This document shows positions 8,746 to 19,982 of a stretch of 40,509 nucleotides of DNA, in pieces. A program made the translations under genes and the position numbers. Position 1 is the stretch's first letter. Every line of letters starts with the position of its first letter. The DNA lies in contig JAILKT010000099.1 of assembly GCA_024693545.1 (NCBI GenBank), positions 1 to 40,509 on the forward strand, in the 5' to 3' direction. The notes under the pieces were generated by a model that was not told where the DNA came from, did not search any database, and worked only from the letters and a program-made list of their open reading frames with translations. The DNA comes from Lachnospiraceae bacterium. GTDB taxonomy: Bacteria; Bacillota; Clostridia; Lachnospirales; Lachnospiraceae.

Positions 8746-10653
8746 ATGGTATTAGGCGATTTCTCATATGCGACGGCAGGAATAATGCTCCTGCTTCTTG
8801 TTGCGTATTTTGCTCGGCGAAATACCCGTCAGCGATCAGGATTTTATTTTATTTCCTGTGTAATCTCTCTTTCTCTTGTTAATCTGATTAACGAGATAAT
8901 AGTACATCAGACGGAAGATCTTTCAAATGTTGACATCGGAGCGCTTAAGACCAGTGTTTGTTTGTCGATGTTTTTCTTCTGTGCCTTTTATTTCGGAATC
9001 GTTTTCTACTTCTTTGAAATTCTCAGTGTCAGAAAGATCAAGCTGCCGGTTAAGATAATTTTGATCGCATTCGCGACCTTTGAGCTTATCGGTATTTCCA
9101 TATCACCGTCTACGGATTTCTTCTTCAGCATTGAAAACGGGATAGTCTATGTTTCTACGTTGTATAATGTATTTTTCTCGATCGTGATCTGCGTTTTCGC
9201 AGTTTCCGTAGTCCTTTATCTGCATAAATACGGTCAGAATATCAGAAAATACCAGAGATATTCACTTCTTGCTTCGACAGTGACTCTCGGTATCGCATTT
9301 GTCAGCCAGTCTGTATTTCCCAGATATCAGCCGGGATGCGTGATAAGCGCTTTGGCTCTTATTCTGCTGTTTTCTTCCATTGAAGATGCTTCCGAGTTCT
9401 ATTATCAGTATAATATGTGTTTCAACGAATATGCGTTCAAGCAGATCGCCGAGCGCAACTTCAGATACTATAATCTCGAAGGTCTTGTTTTTGCAGGCAT
9501 TGTTGACTTTTCCATGATGAGTATGTACCTTCAGAGAGACATGACCGAGAGGATCGAAAATCGACTTGTTGCCGGTCTCGTAAAGGGTTTTGGAAAGAAA
9601 AACGTATTTTATCTCGATAACGGAATGTTTGTGATCGCAATATCCAGATTAAAGGAAGATACACCGGATGCGATTTATTCGGAGATACAAGAAATCTGTT
9701 CCGGAGTAGGCTCGATTTTGCCGTTGGAGCCGTATATTTCCATACTCAGAAAAGAAGATATAGAAACCGGCGAAGACTGTATAACAGCGGCAGAACTTTT
9801 TAAGTCGGATCCGCCCGAAACCGATTCGGGAAAACGTGTCTTTGAACTTAAAAAAGAGGATTTCAGGCTACACAGAAGAGAAAGAGCCGTTCTTGGTGCG
9901 ATTGCCGACGGTCTTGCGGAGAACCATTTCGTTGTCGTATATCAGCCGATCTATGATGTTACCATAGATACATATGCATCATGTGAAGTACTTATGCGTC
10001 TTAACGATCCTGAACTCGGAGTGCTTTTCCCTGATGAGTTCATACCCGTTGCCGATAAATACGGACTGTCAGGGCAGATCGGCGACAGGATCTTTGAACT
10101 TGTTTGTAAAACACTGAAACGTCATAATCTTAAAGATCTCGGTACAATATTTATGCATATAAACATTTCCCAGTCCCAGTGTATCGGAAACAGGTTGTCT
10201 GACAGCATGGGGGCTATTTGCCGTAAATATGAGATCGACCCCAGAGTGTTCGGTATCGAGATTTCCGAGAATTCATGTATCAAGGACAAAGGCACTATTC
10301 TTGAAAATGTGCTGAGCCTTAAGAGAAAAGGTATGTCCTTTGCGATCGATAATTTCGGTTGTGTATTTTCAAGTGCCGATAAGATAACCGGATTTCCCGT
10401 TAAATACATTAAATTTGACAGAAAAACGATAATCAGCTCTACCATAGGACCCGAAAACAAATCGATCCTTATGCATCTTGTAAAGATGATTAAAGAACTC
10501 GGATACAAGGCTGTTGCGTGCGGTGTGGAAAGCGAAGAGCTTTACAGATCTTTGTATTCTATGGGATTTGATCTTTTCCAGGGCTATTATTTCTCAAAAC
10601 CGCTTTACGAAGATGAGTATATTGAGTTTTTATCCGCACATGCAAGAAGATGA
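8746..10653 (+). CDS. Membrane protein with degenerate GGDEF and probably inactive EAL domain (copy 1)
   Basis: The 635-residue protein has about seven hydrophobic helices in residues 1-210. A GGDEF-like middle region (about 225-370) has lost the active-site motif and reads YLDNGMFVI where GGDEF would be. A full-length EAL domain follows (about 385-632). The EAL Glu is kept (Glu414 in CEVLMRL), as are Asn in HINIS, Glu in GIEISEN, the KxD motif and QGY. The DDFG motif reads Asp535-Asn536-Phe-Gly, and the catalytic Glu of EGVE is Cys592. The spacings 414-535-592 match the family. It is likely a c-di-GMP binding or signalling protein rather than a phosphodiesterase; this is inference. AGGGAG precedes ATG 8746. 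The next gene is a paralogue 19 bases downstream. Confidence 0.88.
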   Translation: MVLGDFSYATAGIMLLLLVAYFARRNTRQRSGFYFISCVISLSLVNLINEIIVHQTEDLSNVDIGALKTSVCLSMFFFCAFYFGIVFYFFEILSVRKIKLPVKIILIAFATFELIGISISPSTDFFFSIENGIVYVSTLYNVFFSIVICVFAVSVVLYLHKYGQNIRKYQRYSLLASTVTLGIAFVSQSVFPRYQPGCVISALALILLFSSIEDASEFYYQYNMCFNEYAFKQIAERNFRYYNLEGLVFAGIVDFSMMSMYLQRDMTERIENRLVAGLVKGFGKKNVFYLDNGMFVIAISRLKEDTPDAIYSEIQEICSGVGSILPLEPYISILRKEDIETGEDCITAAELFKSDPPETDSGKRVFELKKEDFRLHRRERAVLGAIADGLAENHFVVVYQPIYDVTIDTYASCEVLMRLNDPELGVLFPDEFIPVADKYGLSGQIGDRIFELVCKTLKRHNLKDLGTIFMHINISQSQCIGNRLSDSMGAICRKYEIDPRVFGIEISENSCIKDKGTILENVLSLKRKGMSFAIDNFGCVFSSADKITGFPVKYIKFDRKTIISSTIGPENKSILMHLVKMIKELGYKAVACGVESEELYRSLYSMGFDLFQGYYFSKPLYEDEYIEFLSAHARR

Positions 10654-10672
10654 AAGGAGGTAGTGGGCCGTT

Positions 10673-12583
10673 ATGTCATTATGTTTTGATCTGACAGCAT
10701 TATTGGTTTCAGTGATCATGCTCTTCACGTATTACATAAGACGTAATATATTCATGAAGAGCGGCTATTACTATAGCCTTTATCTGAGTCTGCTTATCCT
10801 TTTGTCCGTATCGGAGATAGTTCTTGATCTGTCACATGCCGATATGGCATCCATGAGTCCGCGTTTTTGGTATTCCGTCAAAGTCATAGGAGTGTTCATC
10901 ACATACTTTCTGACGTACATAGTGCTTCGGTACTTCTGGGCTGTAATGAACTTAAAGAAGATCGGTAAGGCATTCCGTATCGTTATACTCGTATATGTTT
11001 TGATAATGACCTTTATAATCGTTGCGACGCCGTTTACGGGATGGGTATTAAAATTTGAAAACGGGCAGGTGATCAGAGGCGTACTATATCTGGTGCCTTA
11101 CTATGTCGGTCTGTTTACATTTGCGATAGTACTGATATCCGCATTCCTTTTCAGAGAAAAACTTTCGAAGTCCGGCTTGCTCGTTGTGCTGCTGAGTGTA
11201 TTTTTCCTTGTCTGCGCGGGTGTTTGGCAGATATTATATGCGGATGAGCTTAATATCAAGCTTTTCCCTTACGCCTATATGATCGTCGGTATGCTCCTCT
11301 ATACGACGCTTCAGGATCCGTATCTTTACTATTACAAATACAATCTTTGCTTTAATGAAAGATGTTTCCTTGACAGTGTTGATAATAAGCTGAGCGAGGG
11401 CAAGAAGTTCTCCGTATTTTTCCTTGGTATCGACAACATGGGTCTTGTGGTTGAGGCGCTTCCCGAAACAAAGAGGGTAGAGCTTGAAAACAGGATCATA
11501 AGCATGTTGCATGAAATATGCAAGAAGAAGAATGTGTTCATAGTAGATGAGCTTTCGTTTGCGATCATTACGACGCAAGACGTAAGGGAAGTAGTTGTGC
11601 GCGTGTCGAATCAGGTGGATAAGATATGTTTTGATCTCGATATGAAGAAATCACTTTCACCCATCATATATGCGTTCCGCTATGATGCATTTGATTCATT
11701 CGATCACATATACAAAGCTCTTTCTTATGTCAAGGACAAGAAGGACAGAGAGAATGAAAACGATATGATCGTATTCCTCAACACCTCGCGCTTTGATTAT
11801 TATGACCGTGAACTTAAGGTTTATTCGGCCGTCATGAGGGCGATCAAGAATGAATCTTTCACTGTATATTTCCAGCCGATATTCAACAGCGACAATTCCG
11901 ATTTCGTTTCGGCTGAGGCATTACTGCGTATCGAGGATAAGGATCTTGGACTTATTTATCCTTCGGAGTTTATCCCTGTTGCCGAAAAGAACGGTCTTAT
12001 CAGCAAGCTGGGCGAGCTTGTGTTTAACCGTGTGTGCAGTATAGCGTCAAAATATAACCTTCATTCGCTCGGAATGGATTTTATTGACATAAACATTTCT
12101 TATCTGCAGTGTATCAGATCGGATATGGCTGACAGGATGATCGAGATAGCAAAGAAGTATCATCTTTCACCGGGATTTATCAACCTTGAGATCACGGACA
12201 AAGCTTTCCGTTTCGATGAGAACAGCACCTTGACGATGAATATTAAGAAACTCATGGATTTCGGAATGACATTTACGATAGACAATTTCGGAACGGCCGC
12301 TGCCAATGCCGAAAAGATCGTCAGATTCCCTGTCAGGTATGTCAAATTTGACAGATCGGTAATTTGGAATTCGCTGCTCAGTGACAAATGTAAGATCGTT
12401 ACCGGAAACATGGTACGCATGATAAGAGACCTTAATCTTAAGGCCGTTGCCTGCGGTATTGAAACCGACAATCTGCTCGGTGTGATTGCCGATATGGATT
12501 TCAGCTTTTATCAGGGTTATTATTTCTCAAAGCCGATACCGGAAGATGAATTTGTTTATTTCCTGACGAGCCGTCTTTCGTAA
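10673..12583 (+). CDS. Membrane protein with degenerate GGDEF and probably inactive EAL domain (copy 2)
   Basis: This 636-residue paralogue of the preceding gene has the same layout: about seven N-terminal hydrophobic helices (1-210), a shared YYYKYNLCFNE segment, a GGDEF-like middle without the motif (IVDELSFAII), and a C-terminal EAL domain (about 385-633). The EAL Glu is present (Glu415 in AEALLRI), as are Asn in DINIS and the KxD and QGY motifs. It shares both replacements with its neighbour: Asp537-Asn538-Phe-Gly instead of DDFG and Cys594 instead of the catalytic Glu. In addition the second Glu of ExTE is Asp (LEITD). AAAGGAGG at 10653-10660 overlaps the end of copy 1, so the two are probably co-transcribed. 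Tandem duplication and divergence is the likely origin. Confidence 0.88.
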   Translation: MSLCFDLTALLVSVIMLFTYYIRRNIFMKSGYYYSLYLSLLILLSVSEIVLDLSHADMASMSPRFWYSVKVIGVFITYFLTYIVLRYFWAVMNLKKIGKAFRIVILVYVLIMTFIIVATPFTGWVLKFENGQVIRGVLYLVPYYVGLFTFAIVLISAFLFREKLSKSGLLVVLLSVFFLVCAGVWQILYADELNIKLFPYAYMIVGMLLYTTLQDPYLYYYKYNLCFNERCFLDSVDNKLSEGKKFSVFFLGIDNMGLVVEALPETKRVELENRIISMLHEICKKKNVFIVDELSFAIITTQDVREVVVRVSNQVDKICFDLDMKKSLSPIIYAFRYDAFDSFDHIYKALSYVKDKKDRENENDMIVFLNTSRFDYYDRELKVYSAVMRAIKNESFTVYFQPIFNSDNSDFVSAEALLRIEDKDLGLIYPSEFIPVAEKNGLISKLGELVFNRVCSIASKYNLHSLGMDFIDINISYLQCIRSDMADRMIEIAKKYHLSPGFINLEITDKAFRFDENSTLTMNIKKLMDFGMTFTIDNFGTAAANAEKIVRFPVRYVKFDRSVIWNSLLSDKCKIVTGNMVRMIRDLNLKAVACGIETDNLLGVIADMDFSFYQGYYFSKPIPEDEFVYFLTSRLS

Positions 12584-14115: not shown

Positions 14116-16017
14116 TTAAGTGTAATAGGGGCTTATGATGCGGTAGAGTCTTCTGAGAGGAAGACCGACGATATTGTAGTAATCGCCTTCTATCGATGAT
14201 ATATAGGGAGCAAAAAGTCCCTGGATCGCATAAGACCCGGCTTTGTCGAAAGGCTCGCCGCTTGCTATATAGGCGTTGATCTCATTTTGTGAAAGGGAGT
14301 CAAAGGTCACGGTGCTTACTTCTGATTCGCTATATACGGAGGTTTCGCCGTCCCCGTTTCGAACTATTACGGCGATTCCCGTATGAACCTTGTGTGATCT
14401 GCCGGAGAGTGCGCCGAGCATACGGACGGCCTCATCCGCGCTGTGAGGCTTACCGAGTACCGAGCCGTCCAGATCCACAACGGTATCGGAACCGATCACG
14501 ATAACGCTTTCGGATCCTGCGAGACTGCTGAAAACATCTTTTGCTTTAAGCATGGCAAGCTCTTTGACAAGTGATGAAGGATCCTTTGTCGCGGAGGTTT
14601 CATTTGCACCCGAAACCATGACTTCAAAAGGAATGCCGAGCTTTGCGAGAATCTCTCTTCGCCTCGGAGATGCCGAAGCAAGAATTAAACGCGGTCCTTT
14701 TGATAAAGACAAAACACCGGCTGCCGCATTCCTGATCTCTTTTTCGGAAGCGGAGGTCGTACCGCTTACCATCGCAGAGTTGCCGCCGCCTTTGATATCG
14801 ATCTTTTCCTTTAGACCGGAAAGAAGTACGCGGGCATCGTTTCCGCCACCTATAATAAATCTGTATCCTTTTTCGTCGTTTCCGGTAAAGAAGAACACCG
14901 GAGCCGCTTCGGCGGGGACAGTGTCTGCCGGATGTCCCATGGAAGGAGAGGATGAAGGCTTTTCTGACTGTCCGGTTAGACTGTTTACACATCTTCTGGC
15001 TGTATTTTGATCTATATCCGGGCAAAAGAAAATTCGTGAACCGTCGGCAGAGGCTTTTTTCATAAGTATTTCGGCGATGGTTTCGTCTTTTGCATATATG
15101 GACTGTTTAGCAGCTGAAAGTGCGTCACACTGCTGCTTGACTTTTGCAGGAGTGTCGCCTTCCTTCGCCGAGAGAAGATGCATGATCTCAAGTTCGTCCA
15201 TACGCAGTCTGCGCATAGATTTAAGTGCGGCAGCTCCGCATACTATTGTAAATCTGGTACCGCCCCTAAAATGCTCCGCGTTCATGATCTTTATAAGTCC
15301 GATGCAACCTGTTGTTTTTACATGAGGGGCACAGCAGGCGCAGGTATCCACGCCGGTAATGTCCACGATCCTGATCTTGTCGGGAAGGGGAAGAAGGTTT
15401 CTTGCGGAACGCTCGGAAGGGAGTGATGTTTGTTCGGCACCCGGAGAGAGGGCATTGCCTTCGTCATAGAATTTACTGCGGCAGGGCGTTTTCGAGAGCT
15501 CATTTCCGGATATGAACTTCGTTATGATCTCAATATTATCGGTAACAGCCTTGTTAGCCGTGTCCTCGATCAAACAGAGCTCATCGTCTGTAAAAGTTCC
15601 GGCTATATCAAATACGGTGCTCCCGCTTCGCAAATGAAAACCGACATTGTCTTTGTCGAAGAGCTTTTTAATGATCCCGCTCATTATATGCTCGGCCGTA
15701 TGGTGCTGCATGTTTGAAAAACGCTTATCCCAGTCAAGGGTGCCGGTTACCGCGGAGCCGGCTTCGAGAGCCTTATCGGTCAAATGAGTTATGATGCCGT
15801 CACTTTCCTCGGATACATGTATCACATTGGCGGTAATATCGCCACACGTGATCGTTCCAGTATCACATTCCTGACCGCCGCCTTCGGGAAAGAACGCCGT
15901 TTCGTTCAGCACAACACGGTATAGCCCGTCTTTATCCGGGACTGTTTCGCAGCTTTCGACCTTAGCTTTGAATGTCCGTATCATCGAATCATCATAGTAG
16001 AGTTTTACGGTTTCCAC
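14116..16017 (-). CDS. AlaX-type tRNA editing protein fused to Maf nucleotide pyrophosphatase
   Basis: The single 633-residue protein joins two families. The N-terminal part (about 1-265) is an alanyl-tRNA editing domain: FFPEGGGQECDTG at 42-54, the zinc motif HHTAEH at 105-110, and Cys228/His232 in DTCACCAPHVKTTG. It would deacylate mischarged tRNA-Ala. Residues about 270-435 resemble the region after the editing domain in AlaX-L/AlaRS, with a Gly-rich IKGGGNSAMVSG at 408-419 and a low-complexity Ser/Pro insert near 350-372. The C-terminal part (about 443-628) is Maf: LILASASPRRREIL at 444-457, GSDTVVDLDG at 509-518 and SGEPFDKAGSYAIQG at 586-600. Maf proteins hydrolyse non-canonical or pyrimidine NTPs. 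The start is GTG at 16017, with AAGGAG (complement of 16025-16030) 7 bases before it. Confidence 0.88.
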   Translation of the reverse strand: METVKLYYDDSMIRTFKAKVESCETVPDKDGLYRVVLNETAFFPEGGGQECDTGTITCGDITANVIHVSEESDGIITHLTDKALEAGSAVTGTLDWDKRFSNMQHHTAEHIMSGIIKKLFDKDNVGFHLRSGSTVFDIAGTFTDDELCLIEDTANKAVTDNIEIITKFISGNELSKTPCRSKFYDEGNALSPGAEQTSLPSERSARNLLPLPDKIRIVDITGVDTCACCAPHVKTTGCIGLIKIMNAEHFRGGTRFTIVCGAAALKSMRRLRMDELEIMHLLSAKEGDTPAKVKQQCDALSAAKQSIYAKDETIAEILMKKASADGSRIFFCPDIDQNTARRCVNSLTGQSEKPSSSPSMGHPADTVPAEAAPVFFFTGNDEKGYRFIIGGGNDARVLLSGLKEKIDIKGGGNSAMVSGTTSASEKEIRNAAAGVLSLSKGPRLILASASPRRREILAKLGIPFEVMVSGANETSATKDPSSLVKELAMLKAKDVFSSLAGSESVIVIGSDTVVDLDGSVLGKPHSADEAVRMLGALSGRSHKVHTGIAVIVRNGDGETSVYSESEVSTVTFDSLSQNEINAYIASGEPFDKAGSYAIQGLFAPYISSIEGDYYNIVGLPLRRLYRIISPYYT

Positions 16018-16186: not shown

Positions 16187-18214
16187 ATGAATCTGAATTC
16201 GGAAATATCATCAATAAAAGGTGTCGGAGCGGTCAAAGCCGAAGCATTTAACAAGCTCGGGATCATGACCGTAAACGACCTTATCATGCATTTCCCCAGA
16301 GCATACGATATTTTCATGCCTCCGGTAAGTATCGGCAAGCTGCGTAACGGCTATGTCGAAACGATTGAAGTTACCGTTACTTCATCGGCAAGGATCATAC
16401 CACAGAGCGGAAAGCGCAGTATAGTCATGCTGAATGTAAGGGAAGGCACCGAGACAGCAACGCTTATGTGGTTTAATATGCCTTTTATCAGAAAAACACT
16501 TGTCCCCGGCAAATGCCTATGCTTCAGAGGACGTGTTTCCATGCGCGGGAAAAGCACTTATATGGTTCAGCCGCAGGTCTACACCCCCATACAATATCAA
16601 AAGCTTTCAGGACTTATGCAGCCCGTATATAAGCTTTCTGCGGGCCTTACAAATGAGTTTATCCGAAAAACCATTTCCGGATTGTCTGCGGTCATAAAAA
16701 GCGAAGTAAAGGATTTTATCCCGCCCAAAGACAGAAAAGCATTTTCTGTAATGGAAAGATCTCAGGCTCTTATGTCAATTCATATGCCGCCCGGCGGAGA
16801 AGAATATCTTGAAGCAAGAAGAAGGCTTTCTTTCGACGAACTTTTGGGATTTGCATATGATATAAGAACGCTCAGAGATGAGGAAAGATTAAAGAAAAAG
16901 GTATGTTCGGATAAAGAGATCGGGATCTGTGATAAATTTTTAAAAGGACTGCCGTTTGAACCCACGAAAGCCCAGAAAGAGGCCATAGAAGATGTTGTCA
17001 GAGACATGACGGAGGATCTTTTCTCGACAAGGCTGATACAGGGTGACGTAGGCTGCGGAAAAACTTTGGTGGCCATGTACGCATTGCTTGCATGTGCGTT
17101 GACAGGGAAAAACGCATGCTGCCTTGCACCTACCCAGGTGCTTGCGACTCAGCATTACAGGGACATGAAGGAGGCATTTGAGCCCTACGGAGTTGAAGTT
17201 GTCCTATATGTGGGAGGACTGACGAAGAAGGAAAAAGAAGCGAGAAAGGCTCTTAAGGGGTGCGTGATAGTCGGAACTCATGCGATCCTCAGAGACGAGG
17301 CTATGATCGGCGACCCCGGCTGCGTGGTAATAGACGAACAGCATCGATTCGGTGTAAAACAAAGGGAGTACTTCATGCGTAAGAAGGAAAGACCTTATAC
17401 TCTTGTTATGAGCGCAACGCCTATTCCCAGGTCACTCGCGATGGTAATGTACGGCGACAGAAATGTATCCGTGATAGATGAGATGCCGGCCGGAAGACTA
17501 AAGATTAAAAACTGTGTTGTCGGACCGGAAAAAAGAGATACCACTTACGATTTCATTGCTGCGCGTGTTGCGGAGGGAAGGCAGGCCTATGTCATATGTC
17601 CGATGATAGAAGAAAGCGAGGAGCTTGATGCTTCAAATGTTACGGATTATGCGGAAGAACTCAGAAAAATATATAAAGACAGGAATATAACGGTCGGATG
17701 TCTCCATGGAAGAATGAAGGCACAGGAAAAAGAAGAAGTCCTCGATGCATTTTACAGAGGAGAGACAGATGTTCTTGTTTCTACAACTGTAGTTGAAGTT
17801 GGAGTAAATGTTCCCAATGCCACGGTAATGGTGGTAGAAAACGCCGAGCGATTTGGCCTTGCACAGCTTCACCAGTTGCGCGGACGTATAGCCAGGAGTA
17901 CATATCAGGGTTATTGTGTATTTATCAAAAATGCCTCAAGCGAGCTGATAGACAAAAGGCTTGAAATCCTTGTCAAATATAATGATGGAATGCTTGTGGC
18001 TCAGAAAGATCTTGAACTGAGAGGTCCGGGCGATATGTTTGGTGTACAGCAGAGCGGCGATATGACCTTCAGGATCGCCGACATAGTATCGGATTCACAG
18101 ATCCTAAAGGATGCGATCGATTATATCGATTCTCTTGATGATAAGGGGATCATCAGCCTTTTGGAAAAGACAAAAGGAATCATATCTGTTAATACCACCG
18201 CGGATGTGTTATAA
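16187..18214 (+). CDS. recG: ATP-dependent DNA helicase RecG
   Basis: RecG reverses stalled replication forks and moves Holliday junctions. The 675-residue length is normal. The N-terminal wedge/OB domain (about 1-240) begins ISSIKGVGAVKAEAFNKLGI. The helicase core has the Q-like PTKAQKEAIEDV near 263, Walker A GDVGCGKT at 286-293, DEQHRFG at 383-389, MSATPIPRSLAM near 409, and LHGRMKAQEKE plus the QLHQLRGRIARS motif VI near 562. The TRG region near the C-terminus is present (DLELRGPGDMFGVQQSG). AAGGAG at 16173-16178 serves ATG 16187; another ATG at 16183 is out of frame and closes early. Confidence 0.96.
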   Translation: MNLNSEISSIKGVGAVKAEAFNKLGIMTVNDLIMHFPRAYDIFMPPVSIGKLRNGYVETIEVTVTSSARIIPQSGKRSIVMLNVREGTETATLMWFNMPFIRKTLVPGKCLCFRGRVSMRGKSTYMVQPQVYTPIQYQKLSGLMQPVYKLSAGLTNEFIRKTISGLSAVIKSEVKDFIPPKDRKAFSVMERSQALMSIHMPPGGEEYLEARRRLSFDELLGFAYDIRTLRDEERLKKKVCSDKEIGICDKFLKGLPFEPTKAQKEAIEDVVRDMTEDLFSTRLIQGDVGCGKTLVAMYALLACALTGKNACCLAPTQVLATQHYRDMKEAFEPYGVEVVLYVGGLTKKEKEARKALKGCVIVGTHAILRDEAMIGDPGCVVIDEQHRFGVKQREYFMRKKERPYTLVMSATPIPRSLAMVMYGDRNVSVIDEMPAGRLKIKNCVVGPEKRDTTYDFIAARVAEGRQAYVICPMIEESEELDASNVTDYAEELRKIYKDRNITVGCLHGRMKAQEKEEVLDAFYRGETDVLVSTTVVEVGVNVPNATVMVVENAERFGLAQLHQLRGRIARSTYQGYCVFIKNASSELIDKRLEILVKYNDGMLVAQKDLELRGPGDMFGVQQSGDMTFRIADIVSDSQILKDAIDYIDSLDDKGIISLLEKTKGIISVNTTADVL

Positions 18215-18215
18215 T
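18207..18215 (+). promoter_or_regulatory. Extended -10 promoter at the end of recG
   Basis: TGT-TATAAT gives a perfect TATAAT box (18210-18215) with a TG extension, overlapping the recG stop codon. No good -35 is seen at 16-18 bases. If used, transcription would begin near 18222 and give the AAA+ gene a folded leader of about 200 bases. Confidence 0.45.
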
Positions 18216-18401
18216 GACACCCAGATTAAACCAAAGTCAGAAACTTATCAAGCTTGCTTGAAATAAGTTTTTGACTTTGGGTTAACCGTTACACACACCG
18301 AGAAGAAGCGATTTACGAAGAAAATCGCGGGATTCGAGGTGTGTGGAAGGATTACGGGAGCAGCGAAGCTGCGAAGTAATCCGTGGGTGTCATATTTTTT
18401 T
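18214..18401 (+). other. Multibranched inverted-repeat element or structured RNA leader
   Basis: The 205-base gap between recG and the AAA+ gene is almost fully accounted for by nested pairings. An outer stem pairs 18214-18223 with 18384-18393 (ATGACACCCA / TGGGTGTCAT, 10 perfect pairs). It encloses three hairpins. The first spans 18226-18285: TTAA, CCAAAGTCA, AAACTTAT and CAAG arms, one G-T pair, one mismatch, a two-base bulge and a CTTG loop. The second has outer stem CACACACC / GGTGTGTG (18292-18299, 18338-18345) and inner stem GCGATTT / AAATCGC (18308-18314, 18322-18328). The third has GGATTAC / GTAATCC (18349-18355, 18376-18382) and GCAGC-GAA-GCTGC inside. Seven T bases follow at 18395-18401. 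It may be a cis-regulatory RNA, a small RNA with its own terminator, or a small inverted-repeat mobile element. I do not recognise a known family. Confidence 0.6.
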
Positions 18402-18407
18402 AACAAG

Positions 18408-18413
18408 AAGGAG
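18408..18413 (+). promoter_or_regulatory. Shine-Dalgarno setting ATG 18420 of the AAA+ gene
   Basis: AAGGAG lies 6 bases before ATG 18420. A longer in-frame reading from GTG 18339 begins inside the structured element and has no ribosome site, so 18420 is the start. Confidence 0.85.
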
Positions 18414-18419
18414 CGAAAA

Positions 18420-19982
18420 ATGGCGCATTCGTATTCAAGAGCACAACTTGATGCTATAGCCCGTGATAATTACGGACTTCTTGTTTCGTATTGCAATATT
18501 CTCGAATCCGAAGGCTACTGGAGTACTCCGGGCAGCATTCTGCATCAGTCGATCCGTTCGATCCTCGATATGTATGTACAGACCGTACTGATCCGTTTCG
18601 CTCTTTATTGTCAGAAACTCGGCTCCGAAGAAAGAAAATTTATTGCAAATGTCACGGATACAAACGTCTACGAGATATCCTCCGATGATGATGTCAGTGA
18701 CAGAGTGCTGGCGGAAACCCAAAGATTTTATGAATCTCCGCCCATACTACTTCAGCTTTGCGGGCTGCGTGACAATCGCTGCGGATCGGGGCTTATCGGC
18801 CTTTTCTTTGACGCACTTCTGAATATAGAACTGTCAATGGCCTTTATCGATACAGTTAAAACCGGGTTTGTGGCTTCCTTTATACATGATTATTTTGTTA
18901 AGGTGGAGGCGTTCCTTGGATCGAGCTCGAATTACAGCGCTATTGTAAATGAAAGATATATTTTTAAGAAACTTTGCGATGATTCGCTTGAAAAGAGTGC
19001 GGGCTTTTTAAAGGAATCCGGAGAAAGCTTTGAAAATTATGTAAATACTTATATCTATTCCGGAACAGCAAGACCTCTTGCCGCGAGAGCCACGCTTACC
19101 TCCGAAACCGAAGAGGAGGAGGCCGCAGAGACCGCCGAAGTGAAGGAAGAGCCAAAACAGGAAGAAAAGAAACAGGAAAGTCCGCTCGAAAAACTTTTGA
19201 TCGAACTTAACAGCCTTGTGGGACTTGCCTCAGTCAAAGAAGAAGTGAATACGCTCATAAATCTTATCAAAGTCAGAAATATGCGTAAGGAGCGCGGCCT
19301 TCCGCTGATGGATATGAGTTTCCATATGGTATTTATGGGAAATCCCGGAACCGGAAAGACAACGGTTGCAAGACTTATTTCTAAAATATATAAAGAACTG
19401 GGACTTCTTTCAAAAGGAACGCTTGTTGAAACAGACCGATCCGGTCTTGTTGCGGGATATGTCGGTCAGACGGCCCTCAAGGTTCGAGACGTGGTTCACA
19501 AAGCACTTGGCGGAGTACTTTTTATTGATGAGGCATATTCGCTTGCTTCGGATACTCAAAACGACTTCGGTGATGAAGCTATAGAAACGCTTGTCAAACT
19601 TATGGAAGATCACAGAGATGATCTTGTGGTCATAGTTGCGGGCTATACCGATGATATGAAGAGATTTCTGAAGAGAAACCAGGGACTTGTGTCACGTTTT
19701 AATAAATATTTTTATTTTAACGATTATGATGATGAAGAGCTTCTTGCCATACTTGTTTCGATGGCAAAGGGGGCCGGATATGAGTTCTCGGAAGGGGCTT
19801 TGGCGAAGACCGAAAAAATACTTTCAAAGATGGATTCCAATGAGAAATATAAATTCGGAAATGCCAGAGGGATACGTAATATGTTTGAAAGAATGGTCAC
19901 ATCACAGGCCAACAGAGTCTGTATGATCGATGACCCCGGAGTGGAGGAACTTTGCAGCATCCTGGAAGAGGATGTACACTGA
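18420..19982 (+). CDS. AAA+ ATPase of the CbxX/SpoVK type with an unrecognised N-terminal domain
   Basis: The protein has 520 residues. Residues 1-225 form a mostly helical domain I do not recognise. Residues about 228-255 are an acidic, low-complexity linker of Glu, Lys, Ala and Gln. The AAA+ module (about 260-520) has LVGLASVKEEV, Walker A GNPGTGKTT near 307, GYVGQTALKVRDVV, Walker B GGVLFIDEAYSL near 365, the VIVAGYTDDM sensor region, and FGNARGIRNMFE. This matches the CbxX/CfqX and SpoVK group, hexameric remodelling ATPases such as CbbX (Rubisco activase) and EccA. Its substrate is unknown here. The long structured leader upstream suggests regulated expression. A hairpin separates it from the next gene. 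Confidence 0.87.
   Translation: MAHSYSRAQLDAIARDNYGLLVSYCNILESEGYWSTPGSILHQSIRSILDMYVQTVLIRFALYCQKLGSEERKFIANVTDTNVYEISSDDDVSDRVLAETQRFYESPPILLQLCGLRDNRCGSGLIGLFFDALLNIELSMAFIDTVKTGFVASFIHDYFVKVEAFLGSSSNYSAIVNERYIFKKLCDDSLEKSAGFLKESGESFENYVNTYIYSGTARPLAARATLTSETEEEEAAETAEVKEEPKQEEKKQESPLEKLLIELNSLVGLASVKEEVNTLINLIKVRNMRKERGLPLMDMSFHMVFMGNPGTGKTTVARLISKIYKELGLLSKGTLVETDRSGLVAGYVGQTALKVRDVVHKALGGVLFIDEAYSLASDTQNDFGDEAIETLVKLMEDHRDDLVVIVAGYTDDMKRFLKRNQGLVSRFNKYFYFNDYDDEELLAILVSMAKGAGYEFSEGALAKTEKILSKMDSNEKYKFGNARGIRNMFERMVTSQANRVCMIDDPGVEELCSILEEDVH

Follow-up and report, generated by a model that had tools for sequence, protein, structure and literature searches.

A lineage-specific copy of Clostridiales-1 RNA (RF01699) at the recG stop codon, from a transposon-derived structured repeat family of Lachnospiraceae

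The dispersed intergenic repeats bcr1-bcr3 of the Bacillus cereus group resemble miniature inverted-repeat transposable elements (MITEs) and often lie in untranslated regions (UTRs) or between the genes of an operon, with up to 130 copies of bcr1 (PMC3446304, PMC6542083). Repetitive extragenic palindromes (REPs) are palindromes of 20-40 bp (PMC3733652), and in Escherichia coli a REP that lies 15 nt or less from a stop codon is reported to stall ribosomes and lower translation (PMC12306157). Clostridiales-1 RNA, Rfam family RF01699, was published as a candidate RNA of unknown function, and its table row in that paper is y/n/n (Weinberg et al., 2010; PMC2864571). Here we describe an element of this family in a window of 40,509 nucleotides from Lachnospiraceae bacterium (assembly GCA_024693545.1, contig JAILKT010000099.1, forward strand), the whole stretch of DNA that was analyzed. 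The element lies between recG and an AAA+ ATPase gene; it is a lineage-specific copy and a new member of RF01699.

A literature search by name and accession turned up no function for RF01699 since 2010. In the accessible text on the family, the supplements of the 2010 paper aside, transposition, terminal repeats, target duplications and stop-codon anchoring are not mentioned, and the other matches to the name or accession are, as far as their accessible text goes, mentions or unrelated uses (PMC7302867, PMC7682815, PMC3466250, PMC6808178). Nothing relevant was found in the literature on repeats of Lachnospiraceae. The stop-codon-anchored, transposon-derived structure at operon slots reported below is a variant for which we found no description in the open-licence literature, supplements aside.

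Fold, family and setting of the window element

The original prediction, made from the letters alone, described a 10-bp outer stem closing three hairpins, one of them long. The fold of 18214-18393 confirmed this arrangement, with the outer stem P1 around the hairpins P2, P3, and P4. The 251-nt region around the element folds at -101.7 kcal/mol, compared with -55.5 kcal/mol (standard deviation 4.35) for 200 dinucleotide shuffles (z = -10.6), none of which matched it. The prediction recognized no known RNA family, but an Rfam covariance search (cmscan) placed RF01699 at 18215-18392 with 118.6 bits against a cut-off of 48, the model being matched completely (1-166). Our own covariance model R1, whose alignment includes the window copy itself, scored it at 113.8 bits. 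The copy is a full-length member of RF01699, with the four helices and loop motifs of the family. The features are as follows.

16187..18214, + strand: recG (NCBIfam RecG models, best E 1.4e-209; 698 bits, slightly below the model's curated cut-off of 718)
18214..18393, + strand: whole element, an RF01699 (Clostridiales-1) copy extended by one closing base pair (cmscan, own model R1, fold)
18214..18223, + strand: 5' arm of P1, the outer stem, 10 bp (fold, sequence)
18224..18287, + strand: P2, long interrupted hairpin with the conserved GCTTGC loop region (fold, 42-sequence alignment); paired arms 18224-18252/18257-18287, 26 bp
18292..18345, + strand: P3, hairpin with the conserved internal-loop motif ACCGAGAAGAAGC / GCGGGATTCGAGGT (fold, alignment); paired 18292-18304/18333-18345 and 18308-18314/18322-18328
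18349..18382, + strand: P4, hairpin with the conserved CGGGAG / GCGAAG internal loop (fold, alignment); paired 18349-18355/18376-18382 and 18360-18364/18368-18372
18384..18393, + strand: 3' arm of P1 (fold)
18395..18401, + strand: run of seven T 3' of P1, a single A intervening (sequence)
18420..19982, + strand: downstream AAA+ ATPase gene of the CbbX/SpoVK kind (PF00004 and PF17866 above cut-off; TIGR02881 and TIGR02880 match under their curated cut-offs)

The first base of P1 (18214) is the final base of the recG stop codon TAA (18212-18214), and 26 nt separate the end of P1 from the AAA+ start codon. The copy is fully paired without decay and lies in sense orientation between codirectional genes. 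Its closest relative in the genus is still distant (score 0.47, where 1 is identity). The P3 motif may form tandem G.A pairs in our own interpretation, and the variant in the window copy also occurs in the genus copies L358, L364, L365, L369, and L381 of the alignment.

The run of seven T noted after the outer stem is there, with one A in between. P1 closes a 160-nt multibranch followed by this A and the T run, unlike the short G+C-rich hairpin of an intrinsic terminator. A terminator scan listed none at the element, but since its loops were limited to 3-8, it could not list P1.

A small RNA had been among the proposals; a free one with its own promoter, acting in trans, we consider quite improbable. 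Rfam does file the family as 'Gene; sRNA', and base pairing with targets is conceivable for conserved loops such as GCTTGC. The predicted TGT-TATAAT box is also present at the recG stop as TGTGTTATAAT, but it consists of the recG codons Val-Leu-stop plus one base, and the same TATAAT is found at the recG end of two congeners (G134 and G317) that both lack the element there. A consensus scan of 18050-18550 found no + strand promoter, and a start 6-8 nt downstream of TATAAT would fall within P1 and cut this stem. Thus, the promoter reading is weak. Moreover, copies in the genus start at stop codons between genes, and this sense placement fits a part of the mRNA better than a separate RNA.

Mobility of the family and history of the recG slot

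At E <= 0.001, RF01699 was matched in 161 of 299 genomes of the same family of bacteria (130 above the cut-off) and in none of 14 control genomes; under laxer limits four controls matched in one search and one in another, none above the cut-off. Eight genomes searched more fully contain at least 105, at least 90, 31, 20, 10, 1, 1, and 1 matches, the first two being lower bounds from scoring part of the candidates. The titles of matching named loci of GTDB are mostly Lachnospiraceae or genera that we take to belong there, and the rest give only Clostridiales, Clostridiaceae, Bacillota, or bacterium. The genome-wide copy search proposed for the window's genome (G000, 84% complete, so that 16% may be missing) did yield a second, weak relative, but only one match above the cut-off.

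In many Lachnospiraceae genomes the RF01699 match is the larger part, or core, of a longer element of about 200 bp. Its ends lie near GATRYYRGGGTCAAAA and the inverted partner, the end pattern of the mobile form being GAT....GGGTCAAAA, and the second end sits in an extra hairpin past the 3' end of the Rfam model. Exact direct repeats flank 46 of 75 two-ended elements (7 bp in 30, 8 bp in 16), where shuffled pairings gave means of 0.99 and 0.23 and maxima of 4 and 2, respectively, over 200 trials. These target duplications are A+T-rich and variable in sequence. Duplications of 7-8 bp were also found in 17 of 31 end pairs of the named GTDB loci (80 listed of at least 120 stretches), which come partly from genomes already in the 75-element set. 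In G312, a member of the window's genus, ten copies share an identical 173-bp sequence in different surroundings; seven are flanked by an exact duplication of 7 or 8 bp, in two no duplication is exact, and in one the 3' end is gone. Because of the terminal repeats, target duplications, and identical dispersed copies, we regard the family as a non-autonomous transposon. It is a transposon-derived structured repeat, whose mobile form has a 3' hairpin bearing the second terminal repeat.

No partner transposase with the same ends was found in selected regions of G194, G038, G232, G047, G027, and G271 (among the matches listed), in 80 named loci (those listed of at least 120 stretches), or beside genes of PF01609 and PF00872, the two transposase families searched, in 6 and 8 genomes, respectively. 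A 3.5-kb end pair with matching flanks (L283) was considered as a large partner element and proved to consist of two independent short elements flanking ordinary genes.

Several variant forms were observed. Minimal forms of 69 bp consist of the two ends around a P2-like hairpin (L099 3873-3941, L100 3316-3384, and L107 4156-4224), and further short forms retain only P4 or P3 and P4. Two adjacent copies at L210 (G271:C1:541000-541900) have a different 3' end, GATGAAAGCGTCAAAA, which hints at more than one end type in the family. The family is also represented, by copies or fragments, in 10 phage records from human faeces (MT835871 and nine more) and on the Butyrivibrio fibrisolvens plasmid NZ_CP146964, which are possible carriers between genomes.

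The proposal of a mobile repeat thus holds for the family, but the window copy does not have terminal inverted repeats at both ends: it has neither the 3' terminal repeat nor the 3' hairpin, and no 7-8 bp target-site duplication is visible. The gap downstream of recG in related genomes had been suggested as a place to look for compensatory changes. Five congeners keep the recG-AAA+ order, with RecG ends 82-88% identical, and the element is absent from all five gaps; a search with R1 of 23 recG loci of the genus (these five and 18 more, some cut by contig ends) found no element. In G134, the recG stop codon TAA is followed by TATTTAAC, and in the window TAA is followed by the element and then TATTTTTTTAAC, as would be expected for a lineage-specific insertion after the recG stop. 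The gaps of the other four congeners are too divergent to judge insertion. G134 is the nearest congener, and its gap (L127) contains about four ~65-bp repeats in tandem that include GATTTTTGCGAGGAAACGGATGC and appear by eye to be capable of forming hairpins.

These comparisons bear on the proposal that the element is a cis-regulator or riboswitch of the AAA+ gene, which we now regard as scarcely probable. The element does lie in the 5' leader of that gene, 26 nt before the start codon. However, the five congeners have the same gene pair without it, and unrelated genes follow the element elsewhere in the genus. The y/n/n row of the 2010 table points the same way, as we take its columns to mean likely RNA, not cis-regulatory, and not a switch. 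Because the recG copy is absent from five congeners, a conserved AAA+-specific regulator is refuted; a species-specific one is not refuted thereby.

Orientation, stop codons, and inherited slots in the genus

Among 299 profile matches, 201 were near-full and 168 of these had distinct flanks inside the locus. Of the 168 insertion contexts, 99 have the 3' terminal repeat; the remaining 69, which include the window copy, do not. Copies at an edge, in an open reading frame (ORF), or far off were set aside (7, 8, and 4 with the repeat; 1, 15, and 1 without). Between codirectional genes, copies with the repeat are 16 sense and 21 antisense, whereas those without it are 32 and 7. The two classes are separated by one pattern with at most 3 mismatches, and some genuinely two-ended copies whose 3' end is a variant (e.g., L191, sense) land in the class without the repeat, so the counts were also split by genus and repeated with a looser pattern. 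For copies without the repeat, the window's genus gives 18 sense and 0 antisense (p = 8e-6), and the genomes outside it give 14 and 7 (p = 0.19); in the latter, copies with the repeat are 14 sense and 20 antisense.

A fuller table of the genus, which takes in weak matches below the Rfam cut-off, holds 88 copies without the 3' repeat, and between codirectional genes these are 51 sense and 7 antisense. Since orthologous copies are not independent, distinct gene contexts were also counted, the slots being assigned by hand from flanking-gene clusters; 27 are sense and 6 antisense (p = 3e-4). With flanking genes taken as simple ORF calls (minimum 70-150 aa), 57 copies in the genus have an upstream sense gene within 300 nt. 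In 38 of them, the stop codon of this gene is no more than 3 nt from the element start, and in 19 it is exactly the first codon of the element. In the other genomes of the same table, copies with the repeat are 7 sense and 9 antisense, with a stop codon at the element start in 2 of 10, and those without it are 15 sense and 2 antisense. Taken together, the sense bias is established for the window's genus and is merely hinted at elsewhere.

It is worthy to note that 19 of 24 genomes of the genus carry an RF01699 match above the cut-off and that copies recur at the same slots, as identified by clustering of flanking genes: after groEL in 11 genomes, after flgG in 9, between pgk and tpiA in 6, after pyrF in 4 (pyrB next in 2), between rpsH and rplF in 4, and before a pflB-like gene in 3. 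The gene names are those of representatives, some under curated cut-offs, with flgJ the weakest; a flgJ-like gene is next in 7 of the 9 flgG slots. L449 and L450 are partial copies, and the upstream gene is cut or uncalled for L408 and L362. The nine flgG slots include the weak relative in the window's genome, L072 (G000:C88:21269-21418), a divergent copy of 23.3 bits without a clear P4. Because L072 scores below the Rfam cut-off, the RF01699 model can miss diverged slot copies. The copies before the pflB-like gene in three congeners (L048, L372, and L461) form a sub-family with an extra GTTGC..GCAAC hairpin that is absent from the Rfam consensus.

For 35 of 44 slot copies (of 51; L435, L449, L450, and two small two-copy slots were left out), the nearest neighbour is a copy in the same slot of another species, compared with a mean of 4.8 and a maximum of 14 for shuffled labels. 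As nearest neighbours share the slot and not the genome, the slot copies are mostly inherited rather than new insertions.

The pairing has been kept during this descent. Among 42 diverse copies, both sides have changed with pairing kept in 22 of 24 consensus pairs, and the loop motifs are constant; this consensus leaves out P1 and the outer part of P2, which the alignment program left unaligned. In the orthologous sets, 25 slot copies, picked as alignable, gave 111 compensatory cells in 74 of 384 pairs, and slid partners gave 17 and 15. Other changes in these sets were 40 one-sided with the pair kept, 62 one-sided breaks, and 11 two-sided breaks. Arm swaps between species within a slot shortened the mean P1 helix from 9.2 to 7.0 bp in 35 copies, with hardly any change in two small slots. 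In 32 copies, they weakened the P2 duplex from -23.6 to -10.1 kcal/mol. The original prediction had set covariation in homologues against scattered copies with target duplications; covariation is strong and extends to orthologous loci, but such scattered copies exist as well.

P1 of several slot copies takes in the whole stop codon of the upstream gene and reaches its last codon, and the 3' arm often covaries. At the flgG slot, AGA-TAA pairs with TTATCT (L393 and L422) and CGA-TAA with TTATCG (L442, L445, and L448), the exceptions being L401 (AGA), with TTATCG, and L453 (AGA), with TTATCA. At the groEL slot, the variants TGAAACAACA, TGAAATAAC, TAAAAGCA, TAAAGGCT, and TGATCCCA of the 5' arm each face their own complement. 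The sense strand outfolds its complement in 47 of 48 genomes (63 sequences), a supportive result only, as the advantage may stem partly from purine-rich loops. In the same 63 sequences, G.U pairs per copy average 1.5 in sense and 1.0 in the complement (p = 0.018).

These data also bear on a purely selfish explanation, by which the window copy would be a 3'-truncated MITE without a role, and copies at gene ends would persist since insertion within genes is harmful and the TGA or TAA end of the element now supplies the stop codon. Transposition is well established for the family, the recG slot is occupied only in G000 among the six genus members compared, and the sense bias outside the genus is not significant. 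In addition, the 19 of 57 copies that open exactly with the upstream stop codon would be entrenched by it. However, this explanation leaves unexplained the sense bias of 51 to 7 in the genus, the compensatory changes at orthologous slots, and the conserved internal loops, and the window copy is fully paired and not decayed. We therefore consider it unlikely, although deserving of serious attention.

Proposed role and comparison with known systems

The likeliest reading, to which we give a probability of about 0.6, is that the element is an mRNA structure anchored at the stop codon and acting like the stop-proximal REPs of E. coli. With P1 starting at the recG stop and the AAA+ start codon 26 nt past P1, the element would be transcribed within the recG-AAA+ mRNA and act on that mRNA. 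It might set or protect the 3' end of the recG message, much as REPs protect an upstream message from exonucleases. It might slow the terminating ribosome, as stop-proximal REPs (15 nt or closer) are reported to do in E. coli, or bring about partial transcription termination at P1 and the U run. Each of these would separate the expression of recG from that of the AAA+ gene. A ribosome at the recG stop would presumably hold P1 open, and the effect could in this way be coupled to translation. Terminator activity as a common function of the family was rejected, as a T run after P1 is rare.

Several observations weigh against the stop-codon-anchored mRNA structure. The recG slot is not conserved, the pairing kept by descent being seen at several other slots, and the window copy is without the second terminal repeat and the 7-8 bp duplication of the mobile form. 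The T run on which termination would depend follows P1 in just 4 of 88 copies in the genus (a loose count). The orthologous pgk set has no compensatory pair. Outside the genus, the 14 to 7 sense excess among copies lacking the 3' repeat falls short of significance, the looser 3'-end pattern gives 12 sense and 4 antisense (p = 0.08), and the stop codon lies at the element start in only 3 of 13 copies without the 3' repeat. As the window lies in the genus with a clear bias, the split by genus leaves the odds of our reading unchanged. Among the MITE-like bcr1-3 of B. cereus, mRNA decay was reported to correlate with bcr3 only (PMC3446304). Finally, G.U pairs are scarce (1.5 of about 60-67 pairs per copy), and wobble states in the orthologous sets (17 G.U and 12 A.C, p = 0.46) have no clear preference for the sense strand.

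Because the wobble states are unskewed and the G.U pairs few, pairing at the DNA level stays in contention. In template switching, one arm of an imperfect palindrome is corrected from the other. The covariation might have arisen by such switching between the arms, or a transposase might need the hairpins, and short forms bounded by hairpins, such as the 69-bp version, do exist. We regard a DNA-level origin as rather doubtful, and it would be compatible with the other readings. It does not predict the sense orientation and stop-codon anchoring in the genus, nor the conserved sequences of unpaired loops. RNA is favoured because the copies in the genus are placed in sense and anchored at stop codons.

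A broader proposal, which we put forward tentatively and at somewhat less than even odds, is that RF01699 is a mobile element that has repeatedly been turned into an operon punctuation mark. P1 would take in the upstream stop codon, and the terminating ribosome would open or close a 180-nt structure controlling stability, termination, or translation of the groEL, rpsH-rplF, pgk-tpiA, and flgG-flgJ operons across the genus, the recG copy being a young example. From the data presented here, RF01699 gains an identity as a transposon-derived structured repeat common in Lachnospiraceae, one form of which is found at the stop codons of core operons and is inherited in the window's genus. Its function is now directly testable in cultured members, and the family illustrates a route by which a selfish repeat may take on post-transcriptional control.

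Two further features of the window were read from translations. On the - strand, a single frame at 14116-16017 seemingly joins a putative AlaX-like alanyl-tRNA-editing part to a Maf-like part. At 8746-12583 there are two adjacent, similar membrane proteins with putative EAL-like C-terminal halves.

Compared with the known systems, bcr1-3 are a near precedent, being likewise MITE-like, dispersed, and intergenic. The likeness is one of description only, and the duplications of the RF01699 element are 7-8 bp and variable in sequence. The E. coli REPs share with the element an extragenic palindromic structure near stop codons, but a REP is a single palindrome of 20-40 bp, whereas the window element, at about 178 nt, comprises four helices and has its start right on the stop codon. 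The closest match is Clostridiales-1 RNA, with which the window copy shares the same four helices and loop motifs at a score far above the gathering cut-off.

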